From Spartobacteria bacterium LR76 (GTDB taxonomy: Bacteria > Verrucomicrobiota > Verrucomicrobiia > Chthoniobacterales > Terrimicrobiaceae): DNA of 64,000 bases. The notes beneath the pieces were generated by a model. That model did no database searches and was not told the DNA's origin. It was given only the letters and a program-made list of their open reading frames with translations. Position 1 is the stretch's first letter, and every line of letters begins with the position of its first letter. The stretch spans positions 1 through 64,000 of the forward strand of contig QAYZ01000009.1 in the NCBI GenBank assembly GCA_003054655.1, in the 5' to 3' direction. Of the stretch, positions 35,227-41,699 are shown one piece after another. The position numbers and the translations under genes were made by a program.

Positions 35227-35703
35227 TCATTTCCTCCTGGGGGGCCACTGGGACCGAAGCTCCCCTTCCGTCCAGAACGTTTGCCGCGTGCTCGTATTCT
35301 CCCGGATACGGGCCACCTCCGCCGGGAGTACAGGCTCGCCAGTTTCACTCCACTGCAACCGGAGAAAGTTGAGGACGCTGGCGACTTCCTGATCGGTCAG
35401 GACGTCACGCCACGCAGGCATCAGCCCATTATAGGTACGTCCCTTGACCTGGAGAGGACCGCGCATGCCGTCCAACACGATGGCAATCAATGGGGCATTC
35501 GACCCCGCCAGCCATTCCGAATCCCGCAAAGGGGGGCAGGACGGCAGGAGCGCGTTGCCATCCTGGCCGTGACAAACCGCACATTTTTCCATGTAAAGAG
35601 CGGCTCCGCGCACCGCATCTCCCCGCTGTTGCGGCCGTGGCTTGCATCCGGCGAACACAAAGGTTGCCGCGACGAGCATCCCGACCAACCGCCAGGAATT
35701 CAC
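35227..35703 (-). CDS. Lipoprotein cytochrome c
   Basis: A 158-residue protein with a lipobox (VFAGC, Cys20) and one haem site CAVCH at residues 41-45, followed by NGLMPAW with the likely distal methionine. The C-terminal 40 residues are charged. It overlaps the SCO1 stop by four bases and is the third gene of the copper operon. It could deliver electrons to a terminal oxidase or take part in SCO-linked redox chemistry. Confidence 0.88.
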   Translation of the reverse strand: MNSWRLVGMLVAATFVFAGCKPRPQQRGDAVRGAALYMEKCAVCHGQDGNALLPSCPPLRDSEWLAGSNAPLIAIVLDGMRGPLQVKGRTYNGLMPAWRDVLTDQEVASVLNFLRLQWSETGEPVLPAEVARIRENTSTRQTFWTEGELRSQWPPRRK

Positions 35704-36347
35704 GATGCAGGCAGAAGATGCCGGATATCCCGAATGATCGCGTCCTCGTCCCTGAGCTTCCTGAGATCGTACATCACCCGCAGGCGGCCAGCCTCATCGA
35801 TGAGATAGGTGTAAGTGGAATGATCCATCGTATAATCGTCCGGCCTCCCGGGCAGAGGCAGGCGGCGATAGTAAGCACCATAGTCCTTCGCTACCGCCTC
35901 GATCTCCTCGGGGGTACCGGTAAGGCCGAGGAACTTCTCGTCAAAGAACGGCATGTACTCCGCCAGCTTTGCCGGGGTATCGCGCTGCGGATCGACTGTC
36001 ACAAAGATCACCTGGACCTTTTCCCGCTCCTCGGGGGTCAGGCCGCGATTGATCATCGCGAGATCCCCCAGGGATGTCGGGCAGATATTCGGACAGCTCG
36101 TGAATCCAAACTCCAGCAAGACGACCTTCCCCCGGAAGTCACTCAACTTCACCGGTCTGCCGGTCTGCCCGGTGAGTTGAAAATCCGGCAACGCCTTGTC
36201 CTCGGTATAGGAAGTGCCGTGAAACTGGTAAGGAGTCATCGCCGCCCACTGCCTCCAAAGGAACAGCAGCGCGCAAACAAGGAACAGGATGCCGCCGCAG
36301 ACAAGCCAGACGACGCGACTTTTCCGGGGTGCGGGGGCGTCGCTCAT
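35700..36347 (-). CDS. SCO1/SenC copper chaperone
   Basis: A 215-residue membrane-anchored thioredoxin-fold protein: one N-terminal helix (14-31), then LLEFGFTSCPNICPTSL with the copper-binding CxxxC (Cys85, Cys89). A further histidine copper ligand occurs near DHSTYTYLIDEAGR. SCO1 proteins load copper into the Cu-A site of cytochrome c oxidase. It overlaps PCuAC and the cytochrome gene by four bases each, so all three are probably translationally coupled. Confidence 0.93.
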   Translation of the reverse strand: MSDAPAPRKSRVVWLVCGGILFLVCALLFLWRQWAAMTPYQFHGTSYTEDKALPDFQLTGQTGRPVKLSDFRGKVVLLEFGFTSCPNICPTSLGDLAMINRGLTPEEREKVQVIFVTVDPQRDTPAKLAEYMPFFDEKFLGLTGTPEEIEAVAKDYGAYYRRLPLPGRPDDYTMDHSTYTYLIDEAGRLRVMYDLRKLRDEDAIIRDIRHLLPAS

Positions 36348-36814
36348 TTGGTCGGCGGCTGCTTGGACACCGGCAGGGTGATCTCCACCCTGGAGTTCCC
36401 GGGTTCAACATTGAGGACGAGGGTGACTTTGTCGCCTTCGTTGAGACGCTTTTTCAACCCCATCAGCATCAAATGATCCCCACCCGGCTCAAGCACCAGC
36501 CGCCCCTTGGGAGCAATGGTGAGATCCTTGACGAACTCCATGCCCATGACAGTCTGCCCGTTCACCTGCTTCTCGGTGGTGATCATCGGATCGACGGATT
36601 TGGCAACCGAGGTGGTCGCCCCGGTCAATCGCACGACCGAGTCGCCCGGGTTCCTGATGGTCAGATAGGCTGCGGTATTCTCATAGCCTGGCGGCACCGC
36701 CCGCACCCAGCCCCCCTCGATCGTCACCACCGGATCAGCCAGCAGAGCTGGCACCCCGGCGGCCAGCATGGAACACACAAGCAGGAGAGATTTTGTCCGA
36801 TGAAAACGTCGCAT
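36344..36814 (-). CDS. PCuAC-type periplasmic copper chaperone (atypical metal site)
   Basis: A 156-residue exported protein (signal peptide ending near PALLA) of the DUF461/PCuAC family that hands copper to SCO1 and Cu-A. The conserved AYLTIRN strand and the late HLMLMGL motif (His114, Met116) are present. The usual early histidine of the HxnM site is replaced; at that position the protein reads SVDPMITT. Met90 and Met92 (VMGM) could keep a methionine-only site. First gene of the operon; a RegA-like box lies 51-67 bases upstream of its start. Confidence 0.88.
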   Translation of the reverse strand: MRRFHRTKSLLLVCSMLAAGVPALLADPVVTIEGGWVRAVPPGYENTAAYLTIRNPGDSVVRLTGATTSVAKSVDPMITTEKQVNGQTVMGMEFVKDLTIAPKGRLVLEPGGDHLMLMGLKKRLNEGDKVTLVLNVEPGNSRVEITLPVSKQPPTK

Positions 36815-36864: not shown

Positions 36865-36881
36865 TGCGACAAATTGCCGCA
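36865..36881. promoter_or_regulatory. RegA/PrrA-type box before the copper operon
   Basis: TGCGACAAATTGCCGCA matches GCGRC-N5-GYCGC, the operator shape reported for RegA/PrrA regulators. It lies in the 120-base gap between the DJ-1 protein gene and PCuAC, 51 bases before the latter. Two related elements lie before the RegB/RegA-like genes at 39692 and 39858. Confidence 0.55.
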
Positions 36882-36934
36882 CCCCCGACAATCACCGCAG
36901 AGCAGCCGCCGCCTGCCCAGAGACACGCCTGCAC

Positions 36935-37783
36935 CTAGATCGGAGGCATCGCATGCTTCCTGATCGTGTCGGCACAGAGGTCCACAAATGGTTTATGCAT
37001 TTCGTTTAGCAGCGCGACGACCTCGGGATCGGCAGTCTTTGGATCGCCTCCCCCAGGGAATGGCGGATGCGGATCGTATTGCGCTAGGAGTTCCATCCCT
37101 TTTGCGTAAAAATCTCCCCGATAGTGCTGAACGAGGCGGAGGGCAAAATCCAACCCCGCGGTAACCCCTGCGCCGGTCACGCGATTGCGGTCGATCACCA
37201 CTCGCTCATCGGTAGGGATCGCACCCACCAGAGGAAGCAGTCCCCTGGTCTGCCAATGGCTGGTGGCCCTGTACCCATGGAGAAGACCAGCCGCCCCCAG
37301 GAGCAGGGACCCGGTGCACACGCTGCCGGCCATTTCCGCAGCACCTCCGACGTCGCGCAGGAATCGCAATGTCTCCCGATCCGCCATGGCGTCGAGCGTG
37401 CCTGAAGTGCCCCCGGGCACGACCAGCAACGTGGGTCTGGTCGGGCAAGTGCCGAAGGTGAAATGGGGAACGACCTGATATCCGGTCTCGCACATGACAG
37501 GCTTCCCGTCCTTTGACACCAACCGCACCTTGGCTCCCATCATCCCAGCCAGGATGTACTCCGGCCCAAGGGCATCAATGGCCGTAAAACCGGGATAGAT
37601 GAAGATCAGTATCGTCTCCTCTCCGAGAGTGATCCGGGGATACTGACCCGGGATCGGATCGGCCTTGGGCACCGTCGCCACGGGTTCAGGAGCCCGACCG
37701 CAGGAGGGAAGGGCAAGCCCTCCTCCAAGAACCGTCAGAAGGTCGATAAATCTGCGTCGCGTGAACGGATTGATTTCTTTCAT
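36935..37783 (-). CDS. DJ-1/PfpI-family protein with Tat-like signal
   Basis: A 282-residue protein. The N-terminus NPFTRRRFIDLLTVLGGGLALPSC combines twin arginines, a hydrophobic stretch and a lipobox-like Cys, implying export, possibly as a lipoprotein. The DJ-1/PfpI domain has the nucleophile elbow GSVCTGSLLLGAAGLL, as in isonitrile hydratase-like proteins. Export of a DJ-1 fold is uncommon. ATG 37783 has GGAAAG upstream; an upstream TTG is less likely. It lies 57 bases after the pseudopilin gene. Confidence 0.82.
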   Translation of the reverse strand: MKEINPFTRRRFIDLLTVLGGGLALPSCGRAPEPVATVPKADPIPGQYPRITLGEETILIFIYPGFTAIDALGPEYILAGMMGAKVRLVSKDGKPVMCETGYQVVPHFTFGTCPTRPTLLVVPGGTSGTLDAMADRETLRFLRDVGGAAEMAGSVCTGSLLLGAAGLLHGYRATSHWQTRGLLPLVGAIPTDERVVIDRNRVTGAGVTAGLDFALRLVQHYRGDFYAKGMELLAQYDPHPPFPGGGDPKTADPEVVALLNEMHKPFVDLCADTIRKHAMPPI

Positions 37784-37840
37784 GACTGAAGACTTTCCGG
37801 CAGTCGCATCGTCAAAACCCTGCAAGGATGCACTGGATTG

Positions 37841-38611
37841 CTAATAGTAGTAGTTTCCCATGGCATGCCTGATCTGCACGTCATCGCCCCCGAAGCTGAT
37901 GAGTTTCCTCGGCACCCACTCGGCAGAACCATCCGACCATCCCCGATAAAACCCCTCGATCTCCGGCTCCTTAAAAACGAAATCCGGATAGGCAAAGACC
38001 GTATCGTAGTGAAAGCACTCATAACGCCGAGCCTCGGAGCTGTTAAACTCCGCCAGCAAAGTCGCCCACAGCACCCCTCTCCGGAGATTCTTTCTATCTG
38101 CCGCATGCTCTGGATGGGTGATCGTGCCCAACCCCATCTTTGCCATCGGCGACTCATCCAACCGTCCGACATAAACATAACCCGTATAAAGGCCTCCCCC
38201 GACGGTCATTCCTTCCGCCTTGCCCGAGTCGCGAGCCAGCGGATCATTGATCCATGCGGGTTGTTTGCGACGTTTCGGCCACGCGGTTACAGATCCGGCC
38301 GGGATCGGCATGTTGCAGTAGTCGGCCACGATGGCGAGCCTGTTCGTGGAGATGCTACTGGGCACCCAGGTATCCATGGGCGGAAACTCGCCCTTGTCCG
38401 CAAAATACAGAATATCGGCCTGAACGAAGGTCCGCAGATTGCTCAGACTGCCCACCTTCCTGGCCTTGCGCACGCCCTTGATCGCATTGGGCACAGCCAT
38501 CACAGCCAGCGCCAGGATGAGGACCATCACCACGAGCAGCTCGATCAAGGTGAAGCCGCGCCCTTTGCTGGCACGAGCGCCCCACCCTCCGGACTTCGTC
38601 GCAGACAGCAT
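37841..38611 (-). CDS. Prepilin-type protein, pseudopilin-like
   Basis: A 256-residue protein with GFTLIELLVVMVLILALAVMAVPNAIKG, a prepilin leader and helix. The downstream domain is Trp/Tyr-rich and ends in MGNYYY. It starts 9 bases after the stop of the PEP-CTERM gene in the same direction, so both are probably one transcript. I cannot name the family. Verrucomicrobia carry many such proteins, often with a DUF1559-like or other variable tail. Confidence 0.83.
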   Translation of the reverse strand: MLSATKSGGWGARASKGRGFTLIELLVVMVLILALAVMAVPNAIKGVRKARKVGSLSNLRTFVQADILYFADKGEFPPMDTWVPSSISTNRLAIVADYCNMPIPAGSVTAWPKRRKQPAWINDPLARDSGKAEGMTVGGGLYTGYVYVGRLDESPMAKMGLGTITHPEHAADRKNLRRGVLWATLLAEFNSSEARRYECFHYDTVFAYPDFVFKEPEIEGFYRGWSDGSAEWVPRKLISFGGDDVQIRHAMGNYYY

Positions 38612-38620
38612 ACGGAAAGG

Positions 38621-39529
38621 CTAAGCCTTCCGCCTGGAGCGTCGCAGGCACCACAGAACGATCACGCCCGACAAAAGAAGAGCCCAGGTTGATGGCTCGG
38701 GAACGACCGAGGCGGTCAGATTGAGGGTGCCAATATTCGTGCCGCTGGAAGCAAACCCATCCCAGTAGGACACGCCTCCGGCGACCAGCACATCTCCGAA
38801 GATATTGAGTTCATTGGTCAGACTGTCAAACGTGATAGACACATTGGAAAGGTCGGCAAAAAGAAACGGATTGAAGCCCGAAGCGAAGCTGACCAGGGCA
38901 AGACCTGAGTTGACGCCGGTTGCGCGGTCCGGGATATAAACCAAGGCAAAATCTCCGTTGATCAGACTGCCCGTGCTGCCGTAAGGATTCCATCGCGTCA
39001 TGTTGGAAAGCCCGATCTTCTCGCCGATGCCGGTCACAAACATGGATGAGGAATCCGCCGTCGAGGCGCTCCATCCGCTCAGGAAGCTTTCCGTACTGAA
39101 GTTCTCAGTGTCAAACTGGAGCGTGGTCGTCTGGAGCGAACGTCCAGCCACCGGGGTCGGCGTGTAGCCATAAGGACGAATCGGGTCGTTCAGTACCACA
39201 TAGTCGACACCGGCGATATTCGTCGTGATGTAGCCTTCGTTACCGGGATTGACCTGCACATTGTTTGTACTGTCCCAGGCTGTGATGTAGCTATACGTGG
39301 CGGTGTCATCGAAATAGGCATTAAACTCGTACAAACCAGCCACGGCGGGGTTGTTCTTCTTGAACGTAAGAGTCGTGGACCCGCCGGAAAGAGTTGCAGC
39401 AGAAACCTGGCCGATCCCGGCAAGCGCGCAAAACCCGACCACCGCAATGGCGCTACCGCCCAATCGGGCAAACTTTCTGAAGGGGACAAAACCGGAACCA
39501 GGTGGCGAGAACAGTGTTTTTTGTATCAT
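38621..39529 (-). CDS. PEP-CTERM anchored extracellular protein
   Basis: A 302-residue protein. The N-terminus has a basic start and the hydrophobic stretch AIAVVGFCALAGIGQVSAA, a signal peptide. The mature part is a Thr/Ser/Gly-rich beta domain. The C-terminus has the sorting signal VVPEPSTWALLLSGVIVLWC, then LRRSRRKA: PEP motif, membrane helix and basic tail. PEP-CTERM proteins are processed by exosortases and surface-attached or secreted. No exosortase gene is visible in the window. Divergent from regB across a 387-base gap. Confidence 0.88.
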   Translation of the reverse strand: MIQKTLFSPPGSGFVPFRKFARLGGSAIAVVGFCALAGIGQVSAATLSGGSTTLTFKKNNPAVAGLYEFNAYFDDTATYSYITAWDSTNNVQVNPGNEGYITTNIAGVDYVVLNDPIRPYGYTPTPVAGRSLQTTTLQFDTENFSTESFLSGWSASTADSSSMFVTGIGEKIGLSNMTRWNPYGSTGSLINGDFALVYIPDRATGVNSGLALVSFASGFNPFLFADLSNVSITFDSLTNELNIFGDVLVAGGVSYWDGFASSGTNIGTLNLTASVVPEPSTWALLLSGVIVLWCLRRSRRKA

Positions 39530-39691
39530 GATCTTATAAGCATGTGGATTTATGAAGCGAGGCCATGAGTTGCTAATACAGCCATACAGACCAGGCGGCA
39601 GGTCGAAGGATCAGGCAATTCCCCCCCCACCGTTTCAACGTGCAGGGTTCTAGGCGACGGAAACGCCCTCCATCAAGGCGCATGTGCCTGA

Positions 39692-39708
39692 TGCGACACT
39701 TTGCCGCA
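39692..39708. promoter_or_regulatory. RegA/PrrA-type box (copy 2)
   Basis: TGCGACACTTTGCCGCA fits GCGRC-N5-GYCGC. It lies 163 bases before the PEP-CTERM start and 209 before the regB start, so it may serve either or both. Confidence 0.5.
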
Positions 39709-39857
39709 CCTTCCGGGCGCACTACCTGGTGACAGCGATCACCAAAACGGATAAGCCTTGGACCATGGCCCGCGGGTTCACGACAGTTCTTTATTTACTC
39801 TCACCGCGAGGGGCGGCGTGCACACACGTTGCCTCTCGCTATTTTTCCGCCCCTTAG

Positions 39858-39874
39858 TGCGGCAAATTGCCGCA
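39858..39874. promoter_or_regulatory. RegA/PrrA-type box (copy 3, palindromic)
   Basis: TGCGGCAAATTGCCGCA is a perfect 8-1-8 inverted repeat with the GCGGC-N5-GCCGC form. It ends 42 bases before the regB start, a position suited to autoregulation. Confidence 0.6.
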
Positions 39875-39916: not shown

Positions 39917-41185
39917 ATGTTTGACATGTCTTCCCGCATTGAATCCATCGCACCGGGCCTTCGGTGGCTGATCCGATTGCGCTGGCTCTCGCTGGCGGGG
40001 CAGTGCCTGCTGTTTCTCATCAGCGCCTATTACCTGCACATTGAGCTCCCCCTGGGCATCCTGATCCCCTGCCTCGCGATCACGGCAGGCAGCAATCTCT
40101 TTGTCGCCCTGCGAGGCGAAAGGCTTCGCCAGACGGAGTGCAGCGCGGCGTTGCTCCTGCTCGACACGCTCACGCTCTCGGTCATGCTCTACTGGCTGGG
40201 CGGTCCGCACAATCCCTTCACCGCATTCTACCTCCTGCATATCACGATCGCCGCAGTGCTCCTGCCCGCACTCTGGACCTGGATCGGCGTGGGCATTTGC
40301 TCGGCCTGCTATGCCCTCCTCTTCCTGTCCCCTTACGAGATCAAAAGTGCGCTGGGGATCAGTTGCTGCGGGAGCTTTGACTTCCACCTCCAGGGCATGC
40401 TGCTCGCCATGGTGCTCGTCGGCATCTGTATTGCCTTTTTCGTGGGACAGCTCAAGACCGTGCTTGCCACCCGGGAGGTCCAGTTGCAGGAGGCGATGAT
40501 GCTCGGAGTACGCAACGAGAAATTTGCCGGGCTGGCCACGCTGGCTGCGGGGGTCGCGCATGAACTGGCCACGCCGCTCAACACGATCGCCATCATCAGC
40601 TCCGACCTGGAGAAGCAGGCGTGCGACCAATGCGAGAACACCGGCTGCCTGGCCGACGCCAAGGTGATCCGCTCCGAGGTGGAGCGCTGCCGGATCATCC
40701 TCGAGAAGCTCAGCGAGAACACAACGGACAGCATCGGCGAGAATCCGCAATCGTTCATCCTCGGGGAGATCCCGGCGCGTTTGAAGGAATTCCTCAGCCC
40801 GACGAACCATGCGCGTCTTTCCGCCGAGGTCGCTGATCCCAGGCTCGTGATCTTCGTTCCCTCCACCACACTCCTGCAATCTCTCGCCGTGCTGGTGAAG
40901 AATGCATGCGAGGCCGACGAATCCGGCCAACCTGTGACTCTGCGCATCGAGACCGACGAGGAGCGAGTCCTCGCCACGGTCCTGGATAAAGGCCCGGGCA
41001 TGACAGCCGAGGTCGCAGCGCGTGCGGGCGAGCCGTTCTTCACGACCAAGGAGCCAGGGAAAGGGATGGGACTCGGGCTCTTCCTCGTTCGCATGTTTAC
41101 CGAGCGGATGAAGGGGCGCCTCGACATCAAGACCGACCCCGGCAAAGGCACCCGGGTTTCCCTGGAGTTTCCCCTCACCGCGTGA
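39917..41185 (+). CDS. RegB/PrrB/ActS-like redox sensor kinase
   Basis: A 422-residue membrane histidine kinase. Six hydrophobic segments are followed by the dimerisation and ATPase domains. GGPHNPF (95-101), the quinone-binding signature of RegB proteins, lies between segments. The H-box is GVAHELATPLNTIAI with His215; Cys258 in EVERCRIILEKL matches the position of the redox-active RegB cysteine. An additional CDQCENTGC (236-244) is unusual. The N box is LVKNACEAD, and GMGLGLFLV is in the G box. The ATG at 39917 begins just before the first helix. Overall RegBA-type pair is well supported; its ligand is not. Confidence 0.9.
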   Translation: MFDMSSRIESIAPGLRWLIRLRWLSLAGQCLLFLISAYYLHIELPLGILIPCLAITAGSNLFVALRGERLRQTECSAALLLLDTLTLSVMLYWLGGPHNPFTAFYLLHITIAAVLLPALWTWIGVGICSACYALLFLSPYEIKSALGISCCGSFDFHLQGMLLAMVLVGICIAFFVGQLKTVLATREVQLQEAMMLGVRNEKFAGLATLAAGVAHELATPLNTIAIISSDLEKQACDQCENTGCLADAKVIRSEVERCRIILEKLSENTTDSIGENPQSFILGEIPARLKEFLSPTNHARLSAEVADPRLVIFVPSTTLLQSLAVLVKNACEADESGQPVTLRIETDEERVLATVLDKGPGMTAEVAARAGEPFFTTKEPGKGMGLGLFLVRMFTERMKGRLDIKTDPGKGTRVSLEFPLTA

Positions 41186-41189
41186 CCGT

Positions 41190-41699
41190 ATGAAAATCGC
41201 CCTCATCGACGACGACGAGGTCTTTCGCGAGACACTCGCGCGCTCCCTGCGCAGACGCGACCATGAGGTGATCGCCATCGATGGACAGCAGGCCGGGGAG
41301 GAGTGCCGGAATTTTCAACCCGAGGCGATCCTGCTCGATCTCAAGATGCCCGGGCAGACCGGGCTGACGTTGATTCCCCGCCTGAAGGAAGTCGTCCCGG
41401 GGGCCAGGATCGTCATGCTGACCGGCTACGGAAGCATTTCGACGGCCATGGAGGCCGTGAAGCTCGGCTGTTCCGACTACCTCATGAAACCGGTCGACAG
41501 CGACCAGATCGAGGCCGCGCTGGAAGGAAGAGCCAAACCACCGGAGGTGGACGTACCCACCCTCGACCGGGTGGAGTGGGAGCACCTCCAGCGCATCCTC
41601 GCGGACTGTGGCAACAACATCAGCCAGGCGGCAAGGCTGCTCGGAATCGACCGCCGGTCGCTCCAGCGCAAACTGGCCAAGTATCCGCCTCCGCGATAA
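41190..41699 (+). CDS. RegA/PrrA-like response regulator
   Basis: A 169-residue two-domain regulator. The receiver domain has DDDE at residues 7-10, the phospho-acceptor Asp50 (LLDLKMPG) and the KPVD lysine. The C-terminal helix-turn-helix EWEHLQRILADCGNNISQAARLLGIDRRSLQRKL closely resembles the Fis-like DNA-binding domain of RegA/PrrA, with a proline-rich hinge (PPEVDVPTLDRV) before it. It starts 4 bases after regB. It is the likely protein that binds the TGCGRC-N5-GCCGCA boxes. Confidence 0.92.
   Translation: MKIALIDDDEVFRETLARSLRRRDHEVIAIDGQQAGEECRNFQPEAILLDLKMPGQTGLTLIPRLKEVVPGARIVMLTGYGSISTAMEAVKLGCSDYLMKPVDSDQIEAALEGRAKPPEVDVPTLDRVEWEHLQRILADCGNNISQAARLLGIDRRSLQRKLAKYPPPR

Follow-up and report, generated by a model that had tools for sequence, protein, structure and literature searches.

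What connects a RegB/RegA-like pair to a copper delivery operon in this Verrucomicrobiota genome, and could three palindromic boxes lying around these genes be docking sites for the adjacent regulator? The window, i.e. the whole stretch of 64,000 nucleotides analysed here, belongs to contig C12 of a 4.75 Mb genome, and its relevant features are collected in Table 1. An earlier note on this DNA had described three copies of TGCGRC-N5-GCCGCA, one ahead of a PCuAC-SCO1-cytochrome c operon and two in the divergent region before regB; all three were found there, and the gene coordinates bear out both settings. In the 64 kb window, the exact motif occurs at the three boxes only, with 8 strand-matches at one mismatch or less against 1.8 expected. 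Boxes 1 and 2 share the gap between the PEP-CTERM start at 39529 (minus strand) and the regB start at 39917 (plus strand). A conserved TTG follows box 2 after 8 bp and may belong to a −35 element, an arrangement compatible with activation; no sigma-70 consensus promoter was found in the region.

Table 1. Features around the RegB/RegA pair, in window coordinates
Feature	Coordinates	Strand	Details
Cytochrome c	35227..35703	-	PF13442, E=2.5e-11
SCO1/SenC copper chaperone	35700..36347	-	PF02630, E=6.7e-45; CxxxC and distal His (by eye)
PCuAC periplasmic copper chaperone	36344..36814	-	PF04314, E=1.4e-31
RegA box 3 (putative)	36865..36881	.	TGCGACAAATTGCCGCA; 50 bp before the PCuAC start codon at 36814 (minus strand)
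DJ-1/PfpI family protein, lipoprotein-like N-terminus	36935..37825	-	PF01965; also in RegBA locus L095
Pseudopilin-like protein	37841..38611	-	PF07963 (N_methyl); relatives adjoin RegBA in other genera
PEP-CTERM protein, divergent from regB	38621..39529	-	PF07589
RegA box 1 (putative)	39692..39708	.	TGCGACACTTTGCCGCA; between the divergent PEP-CTERM operon and regB
Terminator-like hairpin, then T-run	39806..39839	+	3' terminus of a putative short RNA or regB leader (39758-39850)
RegA box 2 (putative)	39858..39874	.	TGCGGCAAATTGCCGCA, perfect palindrome; 42 bp before regB
regB, redox-sensing histidine kinase	39917..41185	+	NF033792, E=1.4e-59
regA, response regulator with Fis-type HTH	41190..41699	+	NF033791, E=3.5e-43

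The hallmarks of RegB and RegA that had been ascribed to the kinase and the regulator hold on family profiles, conserved residues and alignment with PrrA. RegB scores 202 bits against NF033792 (residues 33–437; curated cut-off 350), its best family by far, and RegA scores 148 bits against NF033791 (curated cut-off 250), also its best family, with the match extending over the whole protein. Both scores lie below the curated equivalog cut-offs, which marks the two proteins as divergent family members. The quinone-binding motif GGxxNPF, read here as GGPHNPF, is found in every full-length RegB relative. An H-box is present, followed by a redox cysteine that all 32 relatives share and which, by its position and not from an alignment with Rhodobacter RegB, we take to be Cys265. 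RegA consists of a PF00072 receiver and a PF02954 domain and aligns with structures 3rqi and 1umq, the latter being PrrA, which its DNA-binding domain matches. It thus has a receiver and a PrrA-type HTH with the counterpart of Cys156: the helix preceding the HTH holds a cysteine aligned with that of PrrA 1umq, and in R. capsulatus RegA, Cys156 is described in this same helix (PMC9147068). Most relatives have this cysteine as well, the exceptions being L081, L082, L084, L091 and L099. At E≤1e-20, the sole RegA of the genome is the one beside regB, and RegB itself is rare (5 of 213 genomes in the order; 28 of the 384 class genomes sampled).

Conservation of the boxes was followed among relatives; those with a name are uncultured Verrucomicrobiota, Terrimicrobiaceae and Chthoniobacterales among them. 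In two congeners, G086 and G087, whose RegB is 84% identical, the boxes are kept and the flanking DNA has drifted. All three boxes are exact in G087; in G086 boxes 1 and 2 are exact, and a variant, TGTGGCAATATGTCGCA, at the place of box 3 fits the refined motif TGYGRCA-N3-TGYCRCA, which was derived from the RegBA loci themselves. At larger distances, a box lies 42 bp before regB in G081 (RegB about 60% identical) and 32 bp before regB in G002 (36% identical), in both cases at a place matching box 2. The block following box 1 (39758–39850) is conserved in the two congeners and, within the family, is found in this genus only. The 15 bp stem of its hairpin is paired in all three congeners with two compensatory changes, a weak signal from three sequences, and the hairpin region folds with z=−2.7; no Rfam match was found in the region. 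The block may represent a short RNA or an attenuated regB leader on the plus strand.

A genome-wide scan with the form proposed in the earlier note, TGCGRC-N5-GYCGCA, returned 9 sites compared to 7 for the reversed control, which is background level, and this loose motif was rejected as a genome-wide predictor. The full palindrome TGYGRCA-N3-TGYCRCA gave 5 exact sites against 0 in the control, 3 of them in the window, and is the sole specific form in this genome. Extending the regulon through sites with one mismatch was likewise rejected (14 sites, the 5 exact ones included, vs 9 in the control). The expected clustering of boxes before respiratory genes was not seen in this genome: neither haem-copper oxidase gene, both of which are located on other contigs, has a box within 1.5 kb. 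Given that and the lack of an excess at one mismatch, a broad redox regulon with many respiratory targets is not seen here; with only five exact sites and no box near either oxidase, the regulon in this genome looks small and local. The fourth exact site (G000:C13:645172, L121) precedes a remote pair of PEP-CTERM genes of the GMYMAYF and GPDDTGGMVMP families and is kept in a congener (G087:C21:69529, L122) within eroded intergenic DNA. The fifth (C12:90761), lying inside an ACR3-like transporter gene (assigned by eye) and not found in the congeners, was dismissed as a target and is probably a chance match.

The association with RegBA was then measured across the class, using 350 bp before regB in 31 RegB loci outside the genus, with shuffles and the reversed motif as controls. 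The refined box was found exactly in 8 of the 31 loci, in 14 with up to one mismatch and in 19 with up to two, compared to 0, 0.04 and 0.64, respectively, in shuffles; the reversed refined motif had no match in the 31 regions. Because the refined motif was drawn from the tested loci, less circular tests were added. The unrefined pattern of the earlier note, at one mismatch or less, was present in 12 of 28 regB upstream regions (0.35 in shuffles), and when all spaced 4-mer pairs were counted without bias, the same word came first, in 15 of 28 regions, with a shuffle maximum of 7. Within 4.5 kb, 30 of 34 RegB loci have a box at one mismatch or less, some of these loci being near relatives of one another; where regB has no box of its own, one is often located upstream, ahead of a SCO1 operon, or else next to the gene that follows regA. 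Between genomes, 42 exact refined sites (control 2) were counted in 29 genomes with RegB and 5 (control 1) in 23 genomes without it, the latter coming from the same order and not matched by family. Published sites comprise YSCGGC-N5-GWCRMA for PrrA, GNGRCRTTNNGNCGC for RegR and SSGNVRDNHYSNCSS for RegA (PMC5506826), and the half-sites of the boxes agree with those of PrrA and RegR. Together with the enrichment of TGYGRC-N5-GYCRCA before regB, this supports the proposal of an operator of the GCGGC-N5-GTCGC kind at RegA targets. Since the same sites recur beside the RegB/RegA pair across the class, the three 17-base palindromes are very probably RegA docking sites. Genome G079, from the same family and with no RegB found, has two loose-motif sites 84 bp apart (G079:C61:776 and 860; L017, L028).

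Copper genes recur at these loci in other genera. SCO1 stands directly before regB in four loci (L070, L071, L073 and L085), an HMA protein adjoins RegBA in L070 and a multicopper oxidase does so in L098. The copper link suggested by the earlier note is borne out by PCuAC-SCO1 in this genus and by these neighbours elsewhere. The most frequent neighbours of RegBA and the box in the class are PEP-CTERM genes and genes for H-X9-DG pseudopilins, not copper genes; c-type cytochromes and TonB receptors are also found among RegBA neighbours in other genera. Remote boxes precede atpB, which encodes ATP synthase subunit a, in one genus (both of its sampled genomes, G249 and G432; L123 and L126), a Rieske/cytochrome b operon in G432 (L127), and the gene of a cytochrome c domain-containing membrane protein in G321. 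G081 and G002 have members of the PEP-CTERM family GPDDxGGMxMP ... MWHPYF, recognized by eye, in divergent orientation to regB. In the genome of the window the homologue is remote, on C13, and its operon has the conserved fourth box, which independently supports a place for this family in the RegA regulon. Structure predictions for the PEP-CTERM proteins reached a mean pLDDT of 34 and 45, values that do not permit a fold search. In G081, a PEP-CTERM and a pseudopilin sequence form one continuous reading frame (L034:7566–9266), where relatives have separate genes.

These data allow the competing readings to be weighed. Palindromes are common targets of regulators and the loose pattern is at chance level genome-wide, as would be expected if the boxes were bound by another regulator, or had another function or none, and stood here by coincidence. 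The enrichment at regB is far beyond shuffles, however, RegB and RegA are the only genes common to nearly all loci, and the sites track the presence of RegB between genomes, which together make this reading very improbable. A less remote, though still unlikely, reading keeps RegA on the boxes and makes copper, bound by RegA itself, the main signal in place of quinone redox, turning the system into a copper-homeostasis switch. R. capsulatus RegA binds copper and dimerizes via Cys156 (PMC9147068), the cysteine is conserved here and in most relatives, and PCuAC, SCO1, HMA and multicopper oxidase are all represented among the neighbours. Yet the five relatives listed above have a RegA lacking this cysteine, the quinone motif and redox cysteine of RegB persist throughout, and boxes before atpB and the Rieske/cytochrome b operon are not at copper genes.

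Somewhat more weight, while remaining tentative, can be given to the view that the main output is a PEP-CTERM/pseudopilin surface module, with a copper operon added lineage-specifically and a secondary link to the copper supply of oxidases. PEP-CTERM and pseudopilin genes adjoin RegBA more often than copper genes do; in G081 and G002 it is they that diverge from regB, and no copper operon was seen in the vicinity. The gene pair behind the fourth box of this genome also consists of PEP-CTERM genes. Against this, RegBA has SCO1 as a neighbour in several further genera, and the function of the PEP-CTERM proteins may itself concern metal.

The reading we prefer, with a probability of about 0.75, is that the boxes are operators of the adjacent RegA, which would control the regBA, PEP-CTERM and PCuAC-SCO1 operons by redox state. 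RegB, with its quinone-binding motif and redox cysteine, would respond to the redox state of the respiratory chain by phosphorylating RegA, and a RegA dimer would bind TGYGRCA-N3-TGYCRCA. By activation or repression, RegA would control its own regBA operon from box 2, the divergent PEP-CTERM/pseudopilin/DJ-1 operon and perhaps also the short RNA from box 1, and the PCuAC-SCO1-cytochrome c operon from box 3; the fourth conserved box would control the distant PEP-CTERM gene pair. Copper supply for oxidase assembly would then follow respiratory need. As the haem-copper oxidases have no box, we infer this last step, in which the copper goes to the terminal oxidase, from the families of PCuAC and SCO1.

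The system can be compared with RegB/RegA of Proteobacteria, also known as PrrB/PrrA, ActS/ActR and RegS/RegR. Both have a RegB with GGxxNPF, H-box and redox cysteine, a RegA with HTH and cysteine, similar operator half-sites and, in several loci, a link between the pair and SCO1/SenC. Here, in contrast, the proteins fall below the equivalog cut-offs, PEP-CTERM and pseudopilin genes are neighbours, sites per genome are few, and the putative operator is a strict 17-bp palindrome, unlike the proteobacterial sites, which are described as degenerate and hard to find by sequence (PMC5506826). A link between RegBA and SCO1 is not new, the SenC-RegA linkage being known in Rhodobacter (PMC5359404; PMC9147068). 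Compared to other PCuAC-SCO1 copper delivery operons, the present one likewise joins both chaperones in one operon; it differs in the RegA-like box that precedes it, and the first His of the usual copper site of PCuAC (36344–36814, minus strand) appears, by eye, to be replaced. In Rhodobacter, the gene order is regB-senC-regA (prrBCA), so that a redox two-component pair is linked to a SCO1-type copper chaperone in both cases; here, SCO1 belongs to the PCuAC-SCO1-cytochrome c operon, which has a box to itself and is separated from regBA by the PEP-CTERM operon, and other genera of the class have SCO1 directly before regB. Homologues of RegAB from Verrucomicrobia are present in a published tree (PMC8191878). 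The literature searched contained no paper on a verrucomicrobial RegBA regulon.

RegBA, known mainly from Proteobacteria, thus seems to be wired to copper supply in Verrucomicrobiota too. A more far-reaching picture, which we consider speculative and rather doubtful, is that RegBA of Verrucomicrobiota governs a small, sharply defined redox/copper regulon, whose conserved output joins copper delivery to a surface module of pseudopilins and Met/His-rich PEP-CTERM proteins that would capture or handle copper, and that in this genus RegA also controls a small RNA. At the level of the preferred reading, the site in Verrucomicrobiota would be a clean 17-bp palindrome, recognizable in individual genomes, a redox sensor would be tied to copper supply, and PEP-CTERM and pseudopilin families without a known role would gain a first functional lead.
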